A DNA stretch of 64,000 nt from Streptomyces tsukubensis. GTDB lineage: Bacteria > Actinomycetota > Actinomycetes > Streptomycetales > Streptomycetaceae. Shown here in pieces: positions 12,188 to 28,011 of this stretch. How positions within the stretch are numbered: the first letter of the stretch is position 1; each line of letters begins with the position of its first letter. A model generated the notes under the pieces. The model made no database searches, had not been told where the DNA came from, and was given only the letters and a program-made list of their open reading frames with translations. Position numbers and translations under genes: made by a program. The DNA is taken from assembly GCF_009296025.1 (NCBI RefSeq), contig NZ_CP045178.1, positions 1,054,001 to 1,118,000 of the forward strand, given 5' to 3'.

Positions 12188-15104
<2,917 letters not shown>

Positions 15105-15431
15105 CGAGGCCGCCGGGGGTCGGGACCGACCCACGCTGGGTGTCGGGGTCGCCCGGCGCAGGGCGTCGGGACCGACCGGCGCAGGGCGTCGGGACCGACC
15201 GGCGCAGGGCGTCGGGACCGACCGGCACCGGAGAGCGGCTTCCGGCGCCACCCTCGCGCCCCGGCGCCCGCGCGATGCACCGCCACCGTCCCGCTCGTCC
15301 GAAGAGTCACCGTCCGGCTCGTCCGGTGGAGTCACCGTCCGGCTCGTCCGACGGAGTCACCGCCACCGCCACCGCCCGTACGAGCTTTACCGCCCCCGCC
15401 CGTCCGACGTACACGCCCCGAGGAGTCAGCC
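15105..15431. other. 327-bp gap with two further minisatellites
   Basis: Between the flavoenzyme and oxygenase genes, a 23-bp unit based on CGTCGGGACCGACCGGCGC recurs about 4.5 times from 15118 to 15227. A separate 25-bp unit starting GTCACCGTCCGGCTCGTCCG recurs about 2.5 times from 15290 to 15360. No gene or clear promoter is seen; GAGGAGTCAGCC at the end gives the oxygenase ribosome site. Confidence 0.75.
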
Positions 15432-16568
15432 ATGACGACGGCGCCGCTCTCGCACACGTCACTCCCCCAGAGCCTCCACCCCACCCTGCCCGGCCACTAC
15501 TACACCGATCCCGAGATCTTCCGTCGAGAGCAGGAACACGTCTTCGAGACCCACTGGATCTGCGCGGTGCGCTCCGCCGACCTCGCGAAGCCCGGCGCCT
15601 TCCGCACGGCCCAAGTGGGAAGGGAGAGCGTCCTCGTCGTCCGGGGCAGGGACGGGGCACTGCGGGCCTTCCTGAACATCTGCCGGCACAGGGGCGCCCG
15701 GCTCTGCATGGAGCCCCGAGGTGAAGTGCGGCGCGCGCTCCAATGCCCGTACCACGCCTGGACGTACGGCCTCGACGGCAGGCTGTCGGCGGCACCCGGG
15801 CTCACCGGCATGCCGGACGTGGACCGGAGCGGCTACGGGCTGATCCCGGTGGCGCTGCGGGAGTGGCTGGGCTACGCCTGGGTGTGCACGGCCGACGAGC
15901 CGCCGTCCTTCGAGGAGACGGTGGTCGGTGCGGCGGTGGAGCGGCTGGGCGACGCCGCCTCCATCGAGCGGTACAGGACCGAGGACCTGGCGCTCGGCGA
16001 ACGCGTCACCTACGACGTGCGGGCCAACTGGAAACTCATCGTCGAGAACTTCATGGAGTGCTATCACTGCGCTACGATCCACCCCGAACTCACCGACGTA
16101 CTACCGGAGTTCACCGACGGATTCGCCGCGCAGTACTACGTGGGGCACGGCGCCCGCTTCGCCGAGGAGGCCGAGGGGTTCACGGTGGACGGCAGCGCCG
16201 GGTTCGGGACGCTGCCGGGGGTCGGTCCTGAACAGGACCGGAGGTACTACGCCATCACGGTCAGGCCGACGGTCTTCGTCAATCTGGTGCCCGACCATGT
16301 GATCCTGCACCGGATGTACCCGATGGCCGAGGACCGCACGGTGGTCGAGTGCGACTGGCTCTACGCCCCCGAGGTACTGGAGTCGGGGGCCGACGTCTCG
16401 AAGTCCGTGGAGCTGTTCCACCGGGTCAACTCGCAGGACTTCGAGGCGTGCGAACGCACCCAGCCGGCGATGTCGTCGCGCGCCTACCGCGCCGGTGGGG
16501 TGCTCGTACCGACCGAGCACCACATCGGCGCGTTCCACACCTGGCTGACCGAGCGGCTCGGCGACTGA
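15432..16568 (+). CDS. Rieske non-heme iron oxygenase, GbcA-like (glycine betaine/N-methyl demethylase)
   Basis: The 378-residue oxygenase has the Rieske cluster ligands Cys84/His86 (CRHRGARLC) and Cys105/His108 (CPYHAWTY). The mononuclear iron site is in ENFMECYHCATIHPEL (His212, His217). Its N-terminus (LPGHYYTDPEIFRREQEHVF) and length fit the betaine/stachydrine demethylase branch rather than aromatic dioxygenases. With the dimethylglycine-oxidase-like enzyme and mscR next door, the likely path is betaine to dimethylglycine to sarcosine with formaldehyde removal. The exact substrate is not proven; stachydrine or carnitine are alternatives. Electrons probably come from the ferredoxin/reductase pair at 8263-9782. 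Confidence 0.85.
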   Translation: MTTAPLSHTSLPQSLHPTLPGHYYTDPEIFRREQEHVFETHWICAVRSADLAKPGAFRTAQVGRESVLVVRGRDGALRAFLNICRHRGARLCMEPRGEVRRALQCPYHAWTYGLDGRLSAAPGLTGMPDVDRSGYGLIPVALREWLGYAWVCTADEPPSFEETVVGAAVERLGDAASIERYRTEDLALGERVTYDVRANWKLIVENFMECYHCATIHPELTDVLPEFTDGFAAQYYVGHGARFAEEAEGFTVDGSAGFGTLPGVGPEQDRRYYAITVRPTVFVNLVPDHVILHRMYPMAEDRTVVECDWLYAPEVLESGADVSKSVELFHRVNSQDFEACERTQPAMSSRAYRAGGVLVPTEHHIGAFHTWLTERLGD

Positions 16569-16576
16569 GCCGGACC

Positions 16577-16606
16577 GAGGGGGGCGTGCTGCGGCCCGCC
16601 CCCCTC
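16577..16606. terminator. Bidirectional hairpin between convergent oxygenase and SMC-like genes
   Basis: GAGGGGGGCG (16577-16586) pairs perfectly with CGCCCCCCTC (16597-16606) around a 10-base loop. It fills the 36-bp convergent gap and touches the stop codon of the SMC-like gene. Confidence 0.8.
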
Positions 16607-19600
16607 AGGACGGGCGCTTGTACATGCGGGTCGCGGTGATCTCGCCGTGCACGGTCTCCTCCTCGGGATCCTGCTGCGGCAGCCCCGGGCGGAGATGCTC
16701 CTCCACCCGGATGTACTTGAGCCCCGCCCGCAGGTCCGCGTCATTGCGCAACCGGATGACCAGCGGGAACTCCGCGAGCGCCGTCGTGTCGAAGAGCCCG
16801 GTGGTGTAGAGGAGCTGCACGCCGAGCGCGTCGGCGACGGCCCGCTGGAGTTCCAGCAGATACGTCGCGTTGGCGCGGCCGATGGGGTTGTCGAGGAAGA
16901 GCGTGCCCGCGTGACGGTGCTTGTCACGGCCCCTGTCGTTGCTGCGCAGCGCGGCCATCGTGCAGTAGAGGGCGATGGCGGCGGTGAGGAGCTGACCGCC
17001 GGAGAACACGTCGCCCATCTGTCCGACGGGCACCCGCTCGGCGCGCAGCACAGCGTCGGGCTTGAGAATCTCCACGGCCACCCCGCGTGGCTGGAGCGCC
17101 GCCTGCACACCGCGCAACAGCAGCGACATACCGTCGCGGCGCAGGTCGGAGTTCTTGCGCACGGCGGAACGGGTCGCCTCGTCGATGACCTCGCCGAGCC
17201 GTTCCGCGAGGGTCGCCTGGTCGGGTTCTTCGAAACGGATCCGCAGGAACTCCTGGCCCGACCACTCCCCCAGCCCCTCCGGCAGCCGGGAGAGGCGCTG
17301 GGCGGAGCGGAGCGTGGCGAGGGACGACTCGACCAGCCCGCGCAGCCGGTCGACGATCGAGTCGCGGTTGCGCTCCAGCTGCTCCAGTTCGTCGGTGAGG
17401 ACCCGCAGCCGGGGCGCGAAGGCGTCCGCCCATTTCCCCGCGTGCTCGGGCAGCGTGGCGGCGGGCAGTTCGCGGATCTGCTGGCGGGCGGGGGTGCGTA
17501 CCTGTTCGTAGCGGGTGGAGTTGGCGTGTCTGACGAGGATGTCGCTCGCCTCCCTGACCGCGGCCTCCGCCGTGGAGAGGTCGGTGGCGCAGCCGCGCAG
17601 GGAGCGGCGGGTCTCGGCTGCCGACTGCCTCGCCTCCTCCAGGGTGCCGGGATACGGCTCGGGCGCCTCGGCGGGTTCGCCGTCGTCGCCCGGCTGCGGT
17701 TCGCGCAGCAGGTCCCGCAGGAGGGCGGCGGTCTCCTCGAAGCCCGCGGTGGCCTCCTCCGCCGCCCGGTGCGCGTAGGACAGTTCGGAGTGCGCGGCCC
17801 GCGCGGTGGCGAGCGCGTCGGTGCGGGCGGCGAGGTCTCCGGTGGCGGTGCGCAGCAGGGACTGGGCGTGTTCCGCGTCGCGGGGGGCGAGTTCCTCCGC
17901 GAGGTCGGTGTGGGCTCCGCCCTCTTCCGGGGCGTGGCGTTCGGCCTCGCCGCGCAGCCTGCCGAGCTGTTCGCTGGCGGACTGTGCGCGGGTCTCCAAC
18001 TTCTGCACCAGCTCTTCCGCGCGGCCGGCGGCCGCCTGTCTGGAGGGCCCGTCGGCGCCGTCCGGGCCTTCGAGGAGCTGGGCCGCGCGGGTGCGGACCT
18101 TGTTGCTGAGGCGGTCCAGTTCCGCGCGGGCCGCGCTCTCGTCGCTCTCGGCGCGGGCCTGTTCGGCGCGGAGGTCCGCGCCGACGCCGACCTTCTCGTA
18201 GAGCTGGGAAGCGGCCCGGTACGCCTCGCGCAGGGTGGGCAGCGCGGTGCGGGGCGCCTCGGGGTCGGGTTCGGGCAGTTCCTCGGGGGCGCCCGCGATC
18301 TCCGCGCGTTCGGCCCGCAGGGCGCGGGCGGTGCGGCGGGCGTCGTCGGCCGCGCGCTGGGCCGCCCTGCGGTCCTCGTCGGCGGCGCGGGCCCGTTCCA
18401 GGCAGGTCTGGGCCCGTGCCTCGGACTCGACGGCCTCCTCCCCGAGTTCCCTGAGCCTGCTGGTCCAGGCGGCGCGCTCGCGCAGCCGGTGGGCGAGGCC
18501 CGCGAGGACGTCGGCGACGCGGCGGGCGCGCTGGGCGGTCTCCTGGCGTTCGTCACGCAGCGCGGCGGCCTCCGCCGCGGCCTCGTCCGCCTCCGTGCGC
18601 AGGGCGCGGGCCTCGGCCAGCCGTTCTGCCGCGGCTTCCGCCTCCTCGCGCGCCCTGCGGGCGGTGTGCTCCAGTTCGGTGAGGTGTCCCGTGGGGCACC
18701 CGGCCCGCCAGGAGGTGAGGCGGGCCGCCAGCTCGCGGTCCTTGGCAAGCCGGGCCGCGAGGCCGCGGATCTCCTCGTCTCGGGCGGCGGCCCGGGTCCT
18801 GAGCTGGGCCCGCTCCTCGTCGGCCGCGTGTTCGTCGTGCATGGCCGGGTTGGGCGGTACGAGGAAGACGCCGGTCTCCGTGGCGCCCTGGCCCGGTGTG
18901 GGGGCGAGCAGGGCGGCCGCGGTGCCGACGGCGACGGTGGAGCGCGGCAGCAGGGCCGCGCCGGTCAGGACCTCGCGGGCGCGGGAGTGGGTGTCGGGGT
19001 CGGTGATGACGACGCCGTCGACCAGCTCGGGGCGGGCGGCGAGGACGGCCGCGTGGTCGGCGGGGTCGACGGCCTGGGCGAGGTAGCGCCAGCCGGGCAG
19101 TGCGGGGATGCCGTGTTCACCGAGGAACTCGACGGTGGTGAGGACGTCGGGCCCTGGCGGGAGCAGACCCCCGTCGCCCAGCGCGCCGAGGATGCGGGAG
19201 TCGTCGGCCGCGACGGTGCGCAGGTCGAAGAGGTGGCGCTCGGCCGAGGCCACCGCCTCCTCCAGCATGTCGCGCAGTCCGTCGGCGGCGCCGTCGAGTT
19301 CCGGCGCGGTCAGGGGGCCTTCTGTGCCGAGGCGGGTCTCCGTGGTGGTGCCCGCGGTGGACGTGGCCCTCGCAGCGCCGTCGGGCGCGGGTCCTGAGCG
19401 GCGCGGGCCCGGTACTCCCGCCGGTCCGGGGGTGCTCGGGAGGCTCAGCAGTTCGGCGAGCCGCTCCTCCGCCGCGAGGCTCGCGGCCGCTGACCTCTCC
19501 GCGTCGTAGGCGCGTTCGGCGGCGGTCGCCGCGTCGGCCGCGCGGGCCGAGGAGAGTTCGGCGCGGGCCTCGGCGGAGGCGGTTTCCTTGGCCCGGTCGG

Positions 19601-21278
19601 CCGCGCGCCCCGAGGTCTCCCTGGCCGCGTCCCACGCGGCGACTGCCGTCTTCTCCGCGTCGCTCGCCGCGAGCGCGGCGCGGGCCGGGTCGGCGTCGGG
19701 CGCGGTGTCGTCCAGCCATCCGGCCGCCACGGCGTCGGCCGTCTCCTGCTCGACCTCGGCGAGGCGCTGGCGGAGGTGGCCCGCCTCGCTGCGGGCGCGC
19801 TGCGAGTCGGTGGCCGCGGCGGTGGCGTCCCTGTGCGCCGCCTCGCCCTGCTCCTGGAGGACGGCGGAGCGCTCCTCCTCCTCGTTGGCGTGCCGCTCGC
19901 CGTTCTCCGCCGCGGTGTGCAGCGCCCGGACGAGGTCGGCCGCCGCTGCGGCGCGGGCGGCGAGCGCGGGGGCCGCGTCCCGCTCCGCCTCGCGGATGGC
20001 GACGGAGACCCTCGCCGAGCGGTCGGCGGAGGCCCGATGACGCAGCACGGCCTCCGCTGCCTGCCAGGCGGAGTGCAGGGTACGCGCGTCGGCGAGTTCG
20101 CGGCGCTGGGCGGCGGCGGCCTTCTCGGCCGCGGTGAGGGCCAGGGAGGCGTGCCGGTAGGCGAGTTCCGCGGCGATGAGGGCGCTGCGGCCCCGGGTCC
20201 CTTCCGCCTCGGCGGCGGAGCGGGAGGCGTCGGTCACCTGCCGCGCGAGGTCACCGGCGCGCTCGCGTTCCTGTCCCGCGCGGGCGGTGAGCCTGCGTGC
20301 GAGGGTCCTGGTGCGCCGCTCCGCCGCAGTGTGGACCTCACGGGCCCGGCCGCGGTGGACGGTGGCGTCGACGATCCGCCCGAGGAGGTCGACGGAGCCC
20401 GCGGTGAAGTCGCGTTCGGCGATGAGTTCGGCGCGGCGGCCGAGTTTGTTGCCGAAGCCGTGTACGAGGTCGGCGAGGCCGTCGGTGTCGCGGGTGTCGG
20501 TGACGGCCCGCAGCAGCAGGTCGGTGAAGTCGGAGTCCTTCTTGACGGCGAAGAGCCCGGCGGCCTCGCCTTCGTCCGCGTTCATCTCCCGCTGGTAGCG
20601 GAAGAGTTCGGGGTCGAGGTTGAGTTCCCCGAGGTGCTCCGTCCAGCGTTCGTGGGTCTCCTCCCAGTGGACGTCGAGGTGGGCGTAGAACTTCCCCGCC
20701 TCGGTCAGCGCGTCCCTGAACCCCTTCATGGTGCGGCGCCTGCCGCGCGCGGCGGATGCCCCTTCCGCGACCGGGCGGACGCCGGTGGCCTCGGCGACGG
20801 GCAGCGCGTCGAGGCTCATGCCGGGCCCCGGTCTGAAGGAGTACCAGGCCTCGGCGAACTTGCGCGGGTCGTTGGAGACCTGCCTGCCCCGCCATTCGCT
20901 GACCTTGCCGACGACGACGTACTCGCCCGTGCGGGTGTGCTGCCATTCCAGGGCCACGTGCCCGCAGTCCTCGGCGAGCAGGAACTTGCGCAGTACGCCT
21001 GAGCTGGCGCCGCCGAGGGTGTTGCGGTGGCCGGGCAGCATCACCGAGAAGATCAGCTTCAGCAGGACGGACTTGCCGCCGCCGTTCTCCAGGAAGAGCA
21101 CACCCGCGGGGGCGGGGCGGCGCGGCGGCCCGATGGGCTCGTCCTCGAAGAACTCCGCCTGGGTGGGTGCGGGCTCGGGCACCGCCTGGCCCACACCGCG
21201 CAGGTCAAGCACCGTGTCGGCGTAGCGCGCGCCGGCAGGCCCGATGGAGTAGAGGCGGACCCGGGACAGCTCGTACAT
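16605..21278 (-). CDS. Large SMC/MukB-like coiled-coil ATPase (MksB/JetC-like)
   Basis: The 1557-residue protein has ABC-type ATPase halves at its two ends. The N-terminal half has a P-loop, LFLENGGGKS, with Lys69. The C-terminal half has signature FSGGQ (SGGQ at 1426-1429) and Walker B LFLDN (1460-1464). Between them lie about 1100 Ala/Glu/Arg-rich residues in heptad-like coiled coils, interrupted near residues 640-800 by a hinge-like globular part. This is the architecture of MukB/MksB/JetC condensin-like proteins. Walker B has Asn1464 where most SMC proteins have the catalytic Glu. It follows two smaller genes in an mksF-mksE-mksB order. It probably loads on and compacts or senses DNA; no nuclease gene accompanies it. 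Confidence 0.75.
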   Translation of the reverse strand: MYELSRVRLYSIGPAGARYADTVLDLRGVGQAVPEPAPTQAEFFEDEPIGPPRRPAPAGVLFLENGGGKSVLLKLIFSVMLPGHRNTLGGASSGVLRKFLLAEDCGHVALEWQHTRTGEYVVVGKVSEWRGRQVSNDPRKFAEAWYSFRPGPGMSLDALPVAEATGVRPVAEGASAARGRRRTMKGFRDALTEAGKFYAHLDVHWEETHERWTEHLGELNLDPELFRYQREMNADEGEAAGLFAVKKDSDFTDLLLRAVTDTRDTDGLADLVHGFGNKLGRRAELIAERDFTAGSVDLLGRIVDATVHRGRAREVHTAAERRTRTLARRLTARAGQERERAGDLARQVTDASRSAAEAEGTRGRSALIAAELAYRHASLALTAAEKAAAAQRRELADARTLHSAWQAAEAVLRHRASADRSARVSVAIREAERDAAPALAARAAAAADLVRALHTAAENGERHANEEEERSAVLQEQGEAAHRDATAAATDSQRARSEAGHLRQRLAEVEQETADAVAAGWLDDTAPDADPARAALAASDAEKTAVAAWDAARETSGRAADRAKETASAEARAELSSARAADAATAAERAYDAERSAAASLAAEERLAELLSLPSTPGPAGVPGPRRSGPAPDGAARATSTAGTTTETRLGTEGPLTAPELDGAADGLRDMLEEAVASAERHLFDLRTVAADDSRILGALGDGGLLPPGPDVLTTVEFLGEHGIPALPGWRYLAQAVDPADHAAVLAARPELVDGVVITDPDTHSRAREVLTGAALLPRSTVAVGTAAALLAPTPGQGATETGVFLVPPNPAMHDEHAADEERAQLRTRAAARDEEIRGLAARLAKDRELAARLTSWRAGCPTGHLTELEHTARRAREEAEAAAERLAEARALRTEADEAAAEAAALRDERQETAQRARRVADVLAGLAHRLRERAAWTSRLRELGEEAVESEARAQTCLERARAADEDRRAAQRAADDARRTARALRAERAEIAGAPEELPEPDPEAPRTALPTLREAYRAASQLYEKVGVGADLRAEQARAESDESAARAELDRLSNKVRTRAAQLLEGPDGADGPSRQAAAGRAEELVQKLETRAQSASEQLGRLRGEAERHAPEEGGAHTDLAEELAPRDAEHAQSLLRTATGDLAARTDALATARAAHSELSYAHRAAEEATAGFEETAALLRDLLREPQPGDDGEPAEAPEPYPGTLEEARQSAAETRRSLRGCATDLSTAEAAVREASDILVRHANSTRYEQVRTPARQQIRELPAATLPEHAGKWADAFAPRLRVLTDELEQLERNRDSIVDRLRGLVESSLATLRSAQRLSRLPEGLGEWSGQEFLRIRFEEPDQATLAERLGEVIDEATRSAVRKNSDLRRDGMSLLLRGVQAALQPRGVAVEILKPDAVLRAERVPVGQMGDVFSGGQLLTAAIALYCTMAALRSNDRGRDKHRHAGTLFLDNPIGRANATYLLELQRAVADALGVQLLYTTGLFDTTALAEFPLVIRLRNDADLRAGLKYIRVEEHLRPGLPQQDPEEETVHGEITATRMYKRPS

Positions 21279-21362
21279 GGCGGGGGACTCTCGTGTGGGC
21301 CGGTGTGACGGATGAGGGGCGTTCGGGCGGGGTGAGCGGGCGCGGAGCGGGCCCGCGACGGC

Positions 21363-21535
21363 TCAAGGGTGGATCGGGTGGGGATCGGGTGGGGATCGGA
21401 AAAGGGCGGCGGGGTCGCAACGGATCAGAACTGGAACGGATCAGGACCGGAAATGGTCACAAGCAGTAGGGGTCACGCGCAGTAGCGGTCGGGAGCAGTG
21501 GAGGTCGGGAGGGATGGAGGTCGGGAGGGAATCGG
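21363..21535. repeat. Degenerate 11-bp and 16-bp tandem repeats between the SMC-complex genes
   Basis: An 11-bp unit, GTGGGGATCGG, occurs about three times near 21365-21398. From 21421 to 21535 there are about seven 16-bp units. Two are CGGATCAG-type (21421, 21437). Five are GTC-type, for example GTCACAAGCAGTAGGG, and start at 21456, 21472, 21488, 21504 and 21520. The array fills most of the 257-bp gap between the second and third genes. Confidence 0.8.
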
Positions 21536-22429
21536 TCAGGAGTGAAAGGGCAGTCCGGCGTCGGCGACGAGGTCCAGATCGTCGGCCTCGTCCGGTGGGA
21601 GCAGGGTCGCGCTGCCGTCGGTGACGGGGACGATGCCGAGTTCCAGCAGTTCGGCCATGGCCGCTCCGCCCGCCATGTCGCGCACCTGCAACTGGTAGCG
21701 GGCGGTGGTGCGGTAGGTGCCGCCGGACTCGTCGCCGGTGCGCTGGAGGAACCCCGATTCCGTGAGGAAGGCGACGGCTTTGGCGACGATGCCCGTGGTG
21801 GAGCCCGCGAGTCTGCGGGCGTCCTTGGTCGCTCCCGTGGAGCTGCGTCTGGCCCAGACCCGCCAGGCCGCTTCGAGTCCGGGAGCGCCGGTGGTCGGGT
21901 CGGTGTTCTCACCGTCGGTCTCCGCGCGCTCCTCGATACGGCGGCAGGCCTGGCGTACGAAGGCGTCCACGCCGTTGACCGTGACGCGCCCGATGTAGCC
22001 GTCGTCGGCGAGGTCTTCGGGGCGGGGGAAGGCGAGGGCGGCGACCGAGAGGTGGGCGAGGCCGTGCAGGAAGCGGTCGGCCGAGTCGGCGGAGGCGCGG
22101 CGGGCGTAGTCGCCCATACGGACGGCGAAGACCGAGTCCTCGGAGGCGGTGACGGCCATACCGGCACGCGGCGAGACCTCAAGGATGATCAGCCCGAGCC
22201 CGGTGGCGACCGCGTCGGCGAGCCGTGCGAAAGGAGGGTCCTCGCGGTATCGCCGCAGGAGTTCCGCGTACTCGGCGTCGCGGGCGGGCTGCAACTTGGG
22301 CTGGAGCCCGAAGCCGACGAGTCGCGCCGCGTCGGCGGTGTCCGCCGGGGTCACCACCGCGGGGCCGGGGGCGGCCGCACGGTCGTCGGGCTCGCCCCAC
22401 GTGGCGTGCTCTGCGGGGTGCTCGGTCAC
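21536..22429 (-). CDS. MksE/JetB-like accessory subunit of the SMC-like complex
   Basis: The 297-residue protein contains winged-helix-like stretches: LEAAWRVWARRSSTGATKDA, then GIVAKAVAFLTESGFLQRTG and TARYQLQVRDMAG. This is the style of the small KITE-like subunits (MukE/MksE/JetB) that bridge kleisin and ATPase. Primary-sequence recognition is weak; the call rests mainly on its place between a kleisin-like and an SMC-like gene. The GTG at 22429 has AAGGAG 8 bases upstream. A 151-bp gap separates it from the first gene of the unit. Confidence 0.6.
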   Translation of the reverse strand: MTEHPAEHATWGEPDDRAAAPGPAVVTPADTADAARLVGFGLQPKLQPARDAEYAELLRRYREDPPFARLADAVATGLGLIILEVSPRAGMAVTASEDSVFAVRMGDYARRASADSADRFLHGLAHLSVAALAFPRPEDLADDGYIGRVTVNGVDAFVRQACRRIEERAETDGENTDPTTGAPGLEAAWRVWARRSSTGATKDARRLAGSTTGIVAKAVAFLTESGFLQRTGDESGGTYRTTARYQLQVRDMAGGAAMAELLELGIVPVTDGSATLLPPDEADDLDLVADAGLPFHS

Positions 22430-22580
22430 TGCTGGGGCTCCTTGGTGCGGGGAGGTCGGAGGAGACGGGCGTCGGCGGACGGTGTCCGGGGCGGGAAGGC
22501 CGCAGGAACCGCGGGCCGTACGGCTGCCGGCGGACCCGACGATCCGGGCGGGCCCGGCGGCGGCGCGGCCTGCGGGGGCC

Positions 22581-24110
22581 TCACGTCCGCTCCCTTCTGC
22601 CGGGCGTAGCCGCCCCGGCCGCTTCGAGGAGCGCCGTGCCCACTATCAGGTCGGCGCCGCCGAACTCCTCGTCGTGGAGTTCGACGCCGTCGTCCACGGC
22701 GAAGAGCAGCTTCGGTTCGCCCTGTCGGTGAGCCGTGCCGACCGGCGGGCTGGCCGCGTGCACGGCGAGCAGGGCGATCAGGTAGGGAAGTTCACGGTCG
22801 CGGAGTCTCGCCTCGGCGAGGAGTCCCGAGAGCCTGCGCGGAGCGTCGTACTCCAGGTCGAGCAGGTCCATGGCGTCCGCGAGCTGGTCCTCGCTGAAAC
22901 GGCTGTCGTCGGGGGTGGCGATCAGATCCGGGTCAGGCATCTCCACGCCCAGGTGTTCGCGCTCCTGCGGGGGCGTGAGCAGGATGTCCACGAGGTCTCC
23001 GACGCGTACGGAGACGGGGGTGCGCAGCCCTGTGCCACGGGCGAAGAAGGCGTCGGTGACGCGGGTCGCCTGCTCCATGGGGAGCGGCAGCACCGGTGCG
23101 AGCAACTGTCCGTAGAGGTCGAGGCTCGTGTGGCCCGACGGGGCGGCGAACGCCTGCCGGTCCTGCTCCGCGCGGAACAGCGGCCCGGCTTCGAGCAGTC
23201 TGGACTGGAGCAGGGTGTGGCGGCGGATGCAGTCCTTGACGATGTCGACGAGTTCGGCGGCCCGGCGTTTCTGCTCGGGGTCCTCCGACTCGTCGCGTGC
23301 CTTACGGATGTTGGTCAGGATGGCGTTCTCGTGGCGATAGCGGTCGGCGACGTGGTCCAGCGCCTCCGCGATCATGTCGGGCACGGTGGTGAGCCAGTCG
23401 ACCGCGCGGACGTTGCGCCGGGTCGCGTCCAGTGCCCTGCGCAGCGTCTCGGAGTACTGCACGGTGCGGTAGCGGGCCTGCTCCGCCGCGAGCTGCGCGT
23501 CCGCGAGCCTGCCGCGGCTGATCAGCACCTCCAGCTTCACCTCGGCGGCGATCTGCGCGCTGGTGACGTCGGTGTCGAGCGCGCCCACCAGGACGTTGAC
23601 CGCCTCGTCCGTGGTCCGCAGATAGACGCTGCCTCCGTGGCCGGGCACTTCCTCGATGAGTTTGAAGTCGTAGTCCCTGCGGACGTAGGACCCGTCGGAG
23701 GCGAACGTGCCGTAGACCGCGCGGAACCCGCGGTCGACACTGCCGACGTTGATGAGGTTCTCCAGCACCCAGCGGGCCACCCGCTCGTGCTCGACCGAGG
23801 GCCGTCCCGAGGCCTGGGCCGCGACGCGCGGCAGGAGTCTGGCCACTATCTGCTCGTGGTCGGCGCCGGTGTCGAAGTCCATGTTCAGCGTGACGAGGTC
23901 GATGGCCGCGAGCGCCACCTCCGCCATCGCGTACCCGGAGTACTCCCCCGCGAGATTGGCCTTGCGCACGTCGAGATCGTGCAGCGGCGCCGTGCAGGCG
24001 AGGGCCCGCAGCCGCCGCGCGAGCCCTTCATCGGCGGCCGGGCCCGGCGCGGGGCGCGGCCCCACGCTGAGCTGGGGCGGAGCGATGTCCGACGAGGCAG
24101 GCGAAGTCAC
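22581..24110 (-). CDS. MksF/JetA-like kleisin subunit of the SMC-like complex
   Basis: With the GTG at 24110 the product has 509 residues. It starts with a helical, HTH-like region containing HERVARWVLENLINVGSVDR. DDEAVNVLVGALDTDV-type residues and a long amphipathic helical stretch follow (EQARYRTVQYSETLRRALDA, RNVRAVDW). The C-terminus holds more winged-helix-like segments. This order recalls MukF/MksF/JetA kleisins. It is the first gene of the unit, as in mksFEB and jetABC operons. The frame is open to 24323, but the upstream part is Arg/Pro-rich and looks non-coding; no strong ribosome site was found. The function in chromosome organisation or plasmid defence is inferred. Confidence 0.6.
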   Translation of the reverse strand: MTSPASSDIAPPQLSVGPRPAPGPAADEGLARRLRALACTAPLHDLDVRKANLAGEYSGYAMAEVALAAIDLVTLNMDFDTGADHEQIVARLLPRVAAQASGRPSVEHERVARWVLENLINVGSVDRGFRAVYGTFASDGSYVRRDYDFKLIEEVPGHGGSVYLRTTDEAVNVLVGALDTDVTSAQIAAEVKLEVLISRGRLADAQLAAEQARYRTVQYSETLRRALDATRRNVRAVDWLTTVPDMIAEALDHVADRYRHENAILTNIRKARDESEDPEQKRRAAELVDIVKDCIRRHTLLQSRLLEAGPLFRAEQDRQAFAAPSGHTSLDLYGQLLAPVLPLPMEQATRVTDAFFARGTGLRTPVSVRVGDLVDILLTPPQEREHLGVEMPDPDLIATPDDSRFSEDQLADAMDLLDLEYDAPRRLSGLLAEARLRDRELPYLIALLAVHAASPPVGTAHRQGEPKLLFAVDDGVELHDEEFGGADLIVGTALLEAAGAATPGRRERT

Positions 24111-24574
24111 GTTGCACAGAGTAGATCCTCGGTCCGACAACGGTCGAAACGACGCAGAATGCCTGTCGACGGGGGCGGCGTCCGCCGAGCCTCGCGGTCG
24201 GGCTCGTCCGCCTGTACGCACCGGAGTTGGAACGGTACGCCAGGCCCGGCACGGCGCGCTTCCGAGGGGGCACGAACCTCTGGTCGAATGCGGCTGATTG
24301 ACATGATTGCGCCTTTTGTTCATTTACTGGCCCGGTACGCCGCCGACCGATCCGCCACCCCCGTCCGCGCCCACACCCACCTCAGATGCCCCACACTCCC
24401 GTCCACGATCCGCACCCACACGACGTCAGCCGCCCCCACGACGACGACCGCGCCGGGCCCGACGTGGCCGTCGAACCGCAGCTGAGGGATCCTTTACCTT
24501 GTCGGCCCGGCGTCGCCCGATACGACGCCCGCGGCGCTGCGCCGCGAGCGGCCCCGTACGAGAGGGATCTCCTC
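24111..24574. other. 464-bp divergent gap with an AT-rich promoter-like segment
   Basis: The gap lies between the SMC-complex unit and pxpA. Bases 24290-24335 are unusually AT-rich and contain TTGACA (24298-24303), a perfect -35 box on the plus strand, but no convincing -10 box follows at 16-18 bp. The rest is GC-rich without protein-like frames. A small inverted repeat, GCGGCGCTGCGCCGC, lies near 24532. Confidence 0.45.
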
Positions 24575-25351
24575 ATGCCCCCGGTCCCCGCCCCCGCATC
24601 GATCGATCTCAACGCCGATCTCGGCGAGGGCTTCGGGCGCTGGCGGCTCACCGACGACGAACGGCTGCTCTCGGTGGTGACCAGCGCCAACGTGGCCTGC
24701 GGTTTCCACGCGGGCGACCCGGTGACGATGCGGCGGGTCTGTGAGCGGGCGGTGGAGGCCGGTGTGCGCATCGGGGCACAGGTCTCCTACCGGGACCTCG
24801 CGGGTTTCGGCAGGCGCGCGATGGACGTACCCCCCGCGGAGCTGGCGGCCGAAGTCGCCTATCAGATCGGCGCCTTGGAGATCTTCGCCCGCGCCGCCGG
24901 GTCCCGTGTCGCCTACGTAAAACCGCACGGCGCGCTCTACAACCGGGTGGTGCGGGACGAGGAGCAGGCCCGCGCCGTGGTGGACGGGGTACTGCTCGCG
25001 GGCGCCGGCCTGCCCGTACTGGGACTGCCCGGCTCACGGCTGCTCGACATCGCGGACGAGGCGGGCCTCCCCGTGGTGCCCGAGGCGTTCGGCGACCGCG
25101 CCTACACCGCGTCAGGCACCCTCGTGCCGCGCTCGTCGGAGGGGGCCGTCATCACCGACCCCGACACCGTGGTCGAGCGGTCCGTGGGCATGGCCAGGTC
25201 GGGAACGGTCCTCGCGCGCAGCGGAGAACGCATCGGCGTGCGGGCCCGTTCCCTCTGCCTGCACGGCGACACGCCGGACGCGGTGGGTCTCGCCCGGCGG
25301 GTGCGGGCGAAGCTGGAGGCCGCCGGGGTACGGGTGGAGGCGTTCGCGTGA
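24575..25351 (+). CDS. pxpA: 5-oxoprolinase subunit PxpA (LamB/YcsF family)
   Basis: The 258-residue protein has the family landmarks: IDLNADLGEGFGRW at the start, TSANVACGFHAGDP, YVKPHGALYN and SLCLHGDTPDAV near the end. PxpA works with PxpB and PxpC in the cytoplasm to open 5-oxoproline to glutamate using ATP. The ATG at 24575 places the conserved start four or five residues before IDLNAD. It overlaps pxpB by 4 bp (GTGA), so the three genes form one operon. Confidence 0.95.
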   Translation: MPPVPAPASIDLNADLGEGFGRWRLTDDERLLSVVTSANVACGFHAGDPVTMRRVCERAVEAGVRIGAQVSYRDLAGFGRRAMDVPPAELAAEVAYQIGALEIFARAAGSRVAYVKPHGALYNRVVRDEEQARAVVDGVLLAGAGLPVLGLPGSRLLDIADEAGLPVVPEAFGDRAYTASGTLVPRSSEGAVITDPDTVVERSVGMARSGTVLARSGERIGVRARSLCLHGDTPDAVGLARRVRAKLEAAGVRVEAFA

Positions 25352-26906: not shown

Positions 26907-28011
26907 GGCGGCCCCCGTCGGACGGCTCCGCACGCGCGGGGTCCCGAGGCAGACCCCGCCCGCACCGAACACGCCCGGAAGCGGAACCGTCCCCGTCGAG
27001 CGCGACCGCAGGTACCTGAGGCAGGGCCTGGCCGACCGTGCCCGACGCGCCCGAAGTCGGGACCTGGCCGTACCCAGCGCCCGGGTCGAGACCTGACTCT
27101 GCCCAGCGGCCCGGGGCGGGGCCCGACCATCCCAGCAGCCGAGGCGGGACCCGGCCGTACCCAGCGCCCCACAGCGGAACCGTCCCCGTCGAGCGCGACC
27201 GCAGGTACCTGAGGCAGGGCCTGGCCGACCGTGCCCGACGCGCCCGAAGTCGGGACCTGGCCGTACCCAGCGCCCGGGTCGAGACCTGACTCTGCCCAGC
27301 GGCCCGGGGCGGGGCCCGACCATCCCAGCGGCCGAGGCGGGACCCGACCATCCCAGCGGCCGAGGCGGGACCCGGCCGTACCCAGCGCCCCACAGCGGAA
27401 CCGTCCCCGTCGAGCGCGACCGCAGGTACCTGAGGCAGGGCCTGGCCGACCGTGCCCGACGCGCCCGAAGTCGGGACCTGGCCGTACCCAGCGCCCGAAG
27501 TCGGAACCTGGCCGTGCCCAGCGCCCGGGTCGAGACCTGACTCTGCCCAGCGGCCCGGGGCGGGGCCCGACCATCCCAGCAGCCGAGGCGGGACCCGGCC
27601 GTACCCAGCGCCCCACAGCGGCACCCGGCCGCCCCAGCCGACCCGAGGTGGGACGTCCTGGCCGTCGCGGAGGCCTTGACCGTCGCGGAGGCCTTGGCCG
27701 TCACATCGCCCCGGCTCCGGGCGTTCCACAGCGCGACCTCGGCCCGCAGCCGCTCTGTGGGTTCCACCGGACGGACACGTCCGGGCTCCGCTTCCACTCG
27801 CGCCCACCGCCGACCGGGCGCAGAGCCCAGTACGGACCCGGCCTTACCCAGCGCCCCACAGCGGCACCCGACCGTCCCAGCCGACCCGAGGTGCGACCCG
27901 GCCGTGCTCAGCACCCCGTAGCGGCACCCGGCCGTGCCCGGCAGCGGCCCGAAGCAAGACCCGACCGTACCCAGCACCCCACGACGGCACCCGACCACGC
28001 CGACCTCGCCC
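26907..28011. repeat. About 1 kb non-coding tandem-repeat array with long and short units
   Basis: Three long units begin at AGCGGAACCGTCCCCGTCG at 26980, 27173 and 27394, with lengths of 193, 221 and 223 bp. A related but diverged tail runs from 27617 to about 27985. The length steps come from extra copies of a 28-30 bp subunit of the type GGACCTGGCCGTACCCAGCG. Long open frames on both strands change phase between units and match no protein, so this is most likely a nested minisatellite. It separates pxpC from the convergent AraC gene. Confidence 0.88.

Follow-up and report, generated by a model that had tools for sequence, protein, structure and literature searches.

A type III Wadjet JetABC locus without jetD in Streptomyces tsukubensis and across its family: a candidate second condensin

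The jetABC locus and its three proteins

The subject of this article is a three-gene locus in a 64,000-nucleotide stretch of the Streptomyces tsukubensis contig NZ_CP045178.1 (positions 1,054,001 to 1,118,000 of the forward strand, assembly GCF_009296025.1), hereafter called the window. By homology, the three genes are jetA, jetB, and jetC of a type III Wadjet system, a complex built around an ATPase of the structural maintenance of chromosomes (SMC) type, and they stand here without jetD, the gene for the Wadjet nuclease. JetA matches the PADLOC model JetA3 (PDLC00567, E 2.2e-184) and JetC matches JetC3 (PDLC00588, E=0, 1398 bits). JetB has no family match in Pfam, NCBIfam, or PADLOC, the JetB3 model included; it aligns with 71 other JetB rows and shares 51% identity with JetB from a jetABCD operon on a Rhodococcus plasmid. 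That Rhodococcus JetB itself matches the JetB3 model (PDLC00573) at 4e-4, and the fourth gene of its operon carries a JetD annotation and a JetD3 match at 5.2e-94. On the strength of these matches, we assign the locus to type III Wadjet.

The original prediction, made from the DNA alone, had described three minus-strand open reading frames (ORFs) at 16605-24110 with a gene order and proteins of the JetABC/MksFEB kind. The PADLOC matches and the JetB homology bear this out; the kinship with Jet systems stands and can be sharpened to type III Wadjet, whereas an affiliation with Mks (type I) does not hold. It had also called the subunits diverged, an impression that follows from the general databases: none of the three proteins matches a Pfam family at E<=1, those of MukBEF and MksBEF included, and NCBIfam gave a single non-significant match across all three. 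Similarly, sequence and profile searches of the PDB with JetA, JetB, and JetC found no SMC-complex protein, and for JetB no KITE (kleisin-interacting tandem winged-helix element) protein.

The three genes belong together. In 80 named loci, chosen as nearest by JetA alone (79 labelled Streptomyces and 1 Kitasatospora), tblastn recovered relatives of both JetB and JetC in 79, which excludes a chance association; the exception is L044, which stops just past jetA. In one of these organisms, Streptomyces sp. ms191, jetB (L056, 13558-14337, minus strand) lies on the strand opposite to jetA and jetC, owing to a local inversion or a misassembly.

The AlphaFold models are poor, with a mean predicted local distance difference test (pLDDT) score of 46.6 for JetA and 40.9 for JetB. 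When the low-confidence JetA model was searched with Foldseek, the six best matches were all MukBEF or MukE-MukF chains, with template modelling (TM) scores of 0.17-0.28, and only the top one fell below 0.001 (E 7.3e-4); an entry named MukF(1-287) appeared at rank 29. The top matches have chain lengths of 310-440, which we take to suit MukF and not the shorter MukE. The JetB model (mean pLDDT as above) had no PDB match at E<=0.001. We are therefore moderately confident in JetA as a predicted MukF-like kleisin, and we place JetB as a putative subunit in the KITE position solely from its homology and its place in the gene order. The outcome that the original prediction named as refuting, a structure prediction without kleisin or KITE fold, did not arise: poor as it is, the JetA model ranks MukBEF and MukE-MukF chains first, and the JetB model gives no signal either way.

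The start of jetA deserves care. The ORF remains open to an ATG at 24323 (580 amino acids) and a GTG at 24110 would give 509 amino acids; relatives begin downstream of the longest ORF start in the window, and the gene probably starts at or near the GTG, which is also the end coordinate originally given. Judging from the gene positions, the promoter of jetABC likely lies in the divergent intergenic region to its right (Table 1).

Table 1. Features of the jetABC locus, its flanks, and the second Wadjet system of the genome (window positions unless stated otherwise)
Feature	Position	Strand	Basis or remark
jetC, SMC-like ATPase, type III	16605..21278	-	1557 amino acids; PADLOC JetC3 and ATPase motifs
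jetB, putative subunit in KITE position	21536..22429	-	297 amino acids; 51% identity to Rhodococcus JetB
jetA, predicted kleisin-type subunit, type III	22581..24110	-	PADLOC JetA3; likely start GTG 24110 or TTG 24140
Intergenic region, jetA (-) and pxpA (+) divergent	24111..24385	.	Gene positions
Rieske oxygenase, flank of jetABC	15432-16568	+	
PxpA/LamB_YcsF, flank of jetABC	24386-25351	+	
Type II Wadjet (JetA2, JetB2, JetC2, JetD-family gene)	L002 5634-14928; G000:C2 ~8587600-8596900	+	~20 kb from one end of 8.6-Mb contig

jetD beside core and accessory copies

Two kinds of type III copies can be told apart, those like the copy in the window, which we call core, and accessory or plasmid copies. 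A JetD profile run on the DNA found jetD in none of the 107 core copies in which 1.5 kb or more past jetC could be read. These comprise 71 of the 80 named loci (9 are too short), 11/11 core loci of genomes with an additional accessory copy, and 25/25 further loci from the family. The original prediction held that no TOPRIM nuclease gene flanks the locus, and indeed no JetD adjoins jetABC; nor was the nuclease gene seen beyond an alternative operon boundary in any testable core copy, the finding that would have told against it.

In accessory or plasmid copies, jetD was present in 23/23, where it adjoins the end of jetC or overlaps with it; this count omits L161 (its contig breaks off within jetC), L215 (only a stub of jetC), and L217 (partial). 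It is important to remember that the profile was built from 15 JetD loci, which match themselves by construction. An earlier profile from 3 plasmid JetDs had already recovered those 15, and PADLOC JetD3 agrees in the genus and family sets. In addition, JetD had already been seen in seven of the 23 copies (L209-L214 and L216) when they were retrieved; the genus set contributes 10, which are all the second JetA3 copies it has. Both kinds can coexist in a single genome, as in G091, with its JetD-less core copy and JetD-bearing accessory copy (L174 and L164).

A nuclease encoded elsewhere in the genome was one of the options left by the original prediction, which proposed a genome search for it. 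Neither PF11795 (a JetD model) nor JetD3 matches the S. tsukubensis genome, the latter at E<=0.001. PF09983 (JetD_C) has one match, at C2:8596379, ~7.5 Mb from core jetABC at C2:1076596. Since JetA2, JetB2, and JetC2 genes precede it, this lone JetD, which fits JetD1 models best, belongs to a type II Wadjet of its own, and we dropped it as an unlinked partner of jetABC. The JetC of that system matches the solved JetC 9qe0 in a PDB sequence search. PF09983 is blind to some type III JetD (0 matches for L085 and L086), so it was used jointly with the JetD3 model; a more diverged JetD could escape both.

Two further candidates were set aside. A hidden fourth gene between pxpA and jetA was considered; the ~3 kb of extra DNA there in the relatives inspected encodes a major facilitator superfamily (MFS) transporter and a GntR regulator. 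The 'IFDR' motif by which type I JetB contacts JetD is unusable as a test, there being none, by eye, at the N-terminus of JetD-bearing type III JetB rows.

Distribution across genomes

The JetA3 model matches 98/101 genomes of the genus; those without it are G050 (82% complete, 1,770 contigs), G073 (98%, 1,140 contigs), and G079 (78%). Across the family, the model matches 120/121 genomes and 17/17 genera, the missing one being G452, an assembly of 670 contigs. The sole match in G398 is a diverged copy linked to JetD, and counting the broken match in G451 (76% complete), a core copy is present in 119/121 family genomes. In a sample of the class, the model matches 43/296 genomes in 5/114 genera, 28 of them in the genus itself and 15 in one other actinobacterial family, here f18.

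JetD3 is far rarer. It matches 16/101 genus genomes, in 9 of them at full or near-full length (10 copies) and in the rest as weak partial matches; PF09983 matches 14/101. Each of the 10 strong copies adjoins one of the 10 accessory JetA3 copies, which are spread over 9 genomes. In the family, JetD3 matches 13/121 genomes, strongly in 10, and 8/10 of these adjoin a JetA3. The other two strong matches are in G337, where the operon is split by contig ends, and in G276, which has a jetC stub only; we read the latter arrangement (L215, 12065-13978, plus strand) as a decayed accessory Wadjet.

Among the 15 f18 genomes with JetA3, 2 have a full-length JetD3, both in an accessory operon; of the others, 1 has a half-length fragment on a separate contig, 4 have weak partial matches, and 8 have none. 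Nine of the 15 JetD-less f18 copies are long enough to be judged, and jetD is found in 0/9. Outside chromosomes, JetA was not found in the phage collection; four plasmid records carry a relative, three of them with a JetD3 match as the fourth gene and the remaining one (NZ_CP108614) with a JetD relative nearby.

Phylogeny and neighbourhood

Among the 56 rows of the JetA tree, the 39 without JetD (25 core, the window included, and 14 from f18) are split off from the rest by a branch supported at 100/95, and a single change of JetD state suffices. Nearest to them are the Rhodococcus JetABCD and the truncated L161. The JetC tree (54 rows) has the same split with a Shimodaira-Hasegawa approximate likelihood ratio test (SH-aLRT) value of 80, which is not strong. 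Most of its 14 core rows from other genomes of the family fall outside Streptomyces, the pattern expected of vertical descent. We consider the JetD-less lineage well supported.

The original prediction was right about both neighbours, a Rieske oxygenase on the left and pxpA on the right. Relatives of pxpA occur in the fetched DNA of 63/80 named loci and of 8/25 further family loci, for which only ~3 kb upstream was included, and by this linkage the position of jetABC looks old. A GntR gene lies just upstream of jetA in 69/80 named loci and an MFS gene in 67/80; neither stands between jetA and pxpA in the window. The Rieske neighbour is found in 8/80 named loci only. Downstream of jetC, the commonest same-strand neighbour is a 977-amino-acid protein, present in 29 of the 69 core loci that have any downstream ORF.

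Several tandem repeats lie nearby. An array right of the pxp genes (window 26980-27625) has units of ~193-221 bp in 2.0-2.6 copies and many shorter repeats of near 30 bp. Short arrays at 12409-12519, 15111-15226, and 15284-15362 (18 bp x 6.2, 23 bp x 5, and 25 bp x 3.2) are found upstream of a DAO/GCV_T gene and between the DAO/GCV_T and Rieske genes.

ATPase motifs and selection

The translation of the window JetC contains a Walker A motif (ENGGGKS), a signature motif (FSGGQ), and a Walker B motif (FLDNP). Among 115 core JetC ORFs, some of them cut by contig ends, 112 show Walker A, and the signature and Walker B were each found in 107. Where the pattern matched, the Walker B of type III JetC reads D-N-P, with no glutamate straight after the aspartate, in JetD-less and JetD-bearing proteins alike (107/115 core, 10/10 f18, and 16/21 JetD-bearing, the others being outside the pattern). 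The type II JetC of the same S. tsukubensis genome differs in having D-E.

The core genes are under purifying selection. For the named core copies, the median pairwise ratio of nonsynonymous to synonymous substitution rates (dN/dS) is 0.084 for JetA (80 sequences), 0.109 for JetB (79), and 0.170 for JetC (70), by the Nei-Gojobori method on pairs with dS of 0.1-1.0; at this base composition the values are rough. A ratio of ~1 for accessory copies was discarded, as median identities of 24-31% leave alignment and saturation errors dominant.

Interpretation and rival explanations

We think it rather probable that a type III Wadjet motor lost JetD once and was then retained as a near-universal chromosomal SMC complex, a second condensin of the MksBEF kind. 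The best reading of the trees would place the loss in the ancestor of the Streptomyces family and f18, or before a transfer between them. We infer that JetA, JetB, and JetC assemble with one another, extrude loops, and have the chromosome as their substrate. In this proposal, JetA would bridge JetC dimers, which together with JetB would load on DNA and spend ATP on loop extrusion; without JetD the cycle would end uncut, and the DNA would be compacted or aligned and not destroyed. JetABC would so serve as a second, MksBEF-like condensin alongside SMC-ScpAB, and by analogy with Pseudomonas MksBEF its substrate is probably chromosomal DNA. Evenly poised, in our judgement, is the fuller statement that the Streptomyces family holds a second near-universal condensin from a disarmed type III Wadjet at work on the chromosome, for example in arm folding or spore nucleoid compaction.

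Between the two options that the original prediction left, a condensin-like housekeeping complex gains, as it agrees with a gene set that is near-universal, looks vertically inherited, and is under purifying selection. A nuclease elsewhere is weakened by the scarcity of JetD3, which has no match in this genome at E<=0.001 and, where strong in others, sits nearly always in its own jetABCD operon.

Some findings weigh against the condensin interpretation and should be kept in mind. JetA3 reaches only 5/114 genera of the class sample, which leaves room for a transfer from one family to the other. For the single branch, the JetC tree gives a support of 80 only, and both trees carry a long-branch warning, among their JetD-bearing rows. 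The JetB model matched no PDB fold, and the models of JetA and JetB are both poor. Finally, conservation and purifying selection are also expected of a conserved defence system.

That last point leads to the main rival, a complex still acting against plasmids or phages without JetD, either by silencing small circular DNA through compaction, a mechanism proposed for Smc5/6, or by means of an unrelated nuclease whose gene lies elsewhere. The close relatives are, after all, jetABCD operons, both plasmid-borne and accessory, and the available text of a review ascribes the sensing of DNA size and shape in type I to JetABC and not to JetD (PMC10586767). We nevertheless consider such a role unlikely, with core jetABC in nearly every genome and 17/17 genera at a conserved place, unlike the accessory copies, and with no gene directly downstream of jetC common to most core loci (29/69 at best).

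Improbable, in our view, is that core jetABC borrows JetD in trans from another Wadjet of the same cell. The S. tsukubensis genome does offer a JetD-family gene in its type II Wadjet, but across the genus PF09983 (14/101) and JetD3 (16/101) are too seldom present to serve JetA3 in 98/101 genomes. An ordinary type III Wadjet recently decayed in this strain is barely credible and already contradicted by the family-wide pattern: accessory copies do decay, as in G276 with its jetD3 beside a jetC stub, but here none of the three ORFs is broken, 107/107 testable core copies lack jetD, and dN/dS is far below 1.

Comparison with known systems

Wadjet has been reported in 42% of actinobacterial genomes, with enrichment towards Streptomyces chromosome ends (PMC10482375), and the available portions of that survey contain no mention of a near-universal JetD-less complex. 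At the level of titles and abstracts, most subscription journals being out of reach, no report of one was found in the Wadjet, MksB, or JetABCD literature on Streptomyces. In the parts accessible to us, the literature on Streptomyces chromosome organisation names SMC, ParB, and HU-type proteins, and a 2026 paper on Streptomyces SMC has MksB in its reference list only (PMC13121528). The complex was perhaps overlooked because no Pfam family fits it, and searches for whole Wadjet systems may, we suppose, demand JetD.

If our interpretation is right, Streptomyces chromosome organisation involves one more SMC-family complex, in nearly every species examined. It would also be a further example, from a different phylum and Wadjet type, of a defensive SMC complex that shed its nuclease and was kept by the host, as proposed for MksBEF. 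As both kinds of copies occur in single genomes (G091), a single organism allows the motor to be compared with and without JetD. Among solved structures there is no sequence match to any type III subunit searched here, and the review cited above calls, in the section available (section 7), for work on Wadjet types II and III (PMC10586767).

One close counterpart is MksBEF of Pseudomonas aeruginosa, whose chromosome, according to the accessible part of the report, is organised by both SMC and MksBEF, each replacing the other in some activities (PMC7485682). MksBEF there coexists with SMC, and the core jetABC genome likewise has an ScpA kleisin. Core JetABC differs in being type III and actinobacterial and in having no Pfam match; from its type and host, its loss of the nuclease would be independent of that in MksBEF. 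MksBEFG/EptABCD of Corynebacterium and Mycobacterium are also actinobacterial relatives of JetABC, but the sources, as far as available, describe them as type I systems that retain the nuclease MksG/EptD and target plasmids (PMC10123090, PMC10586767). SMC-ScpAB of Streptomyces, encoded on the same chromosome, likewise combines SMC with a kleisin; it differs in its separate locus, with ScpA, the only PF02616 match of the genome, at C2:1601239, away from jetABC, and JetA is no ScpA-type kleisin by Pfam. Closest of all is type III Wadjet itself, with orthologous JetA, JetB, and JetC in the same order and accessory jetABCD3 operons in the same genus and family; the core locus differs in lacking jetD (107/107 testable) and in being near-universal and chromosomal, not accessory. 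The parts are those of Wadjet III; what sets the locus apart is its core form, which lacks the nuclease and extends across the family.

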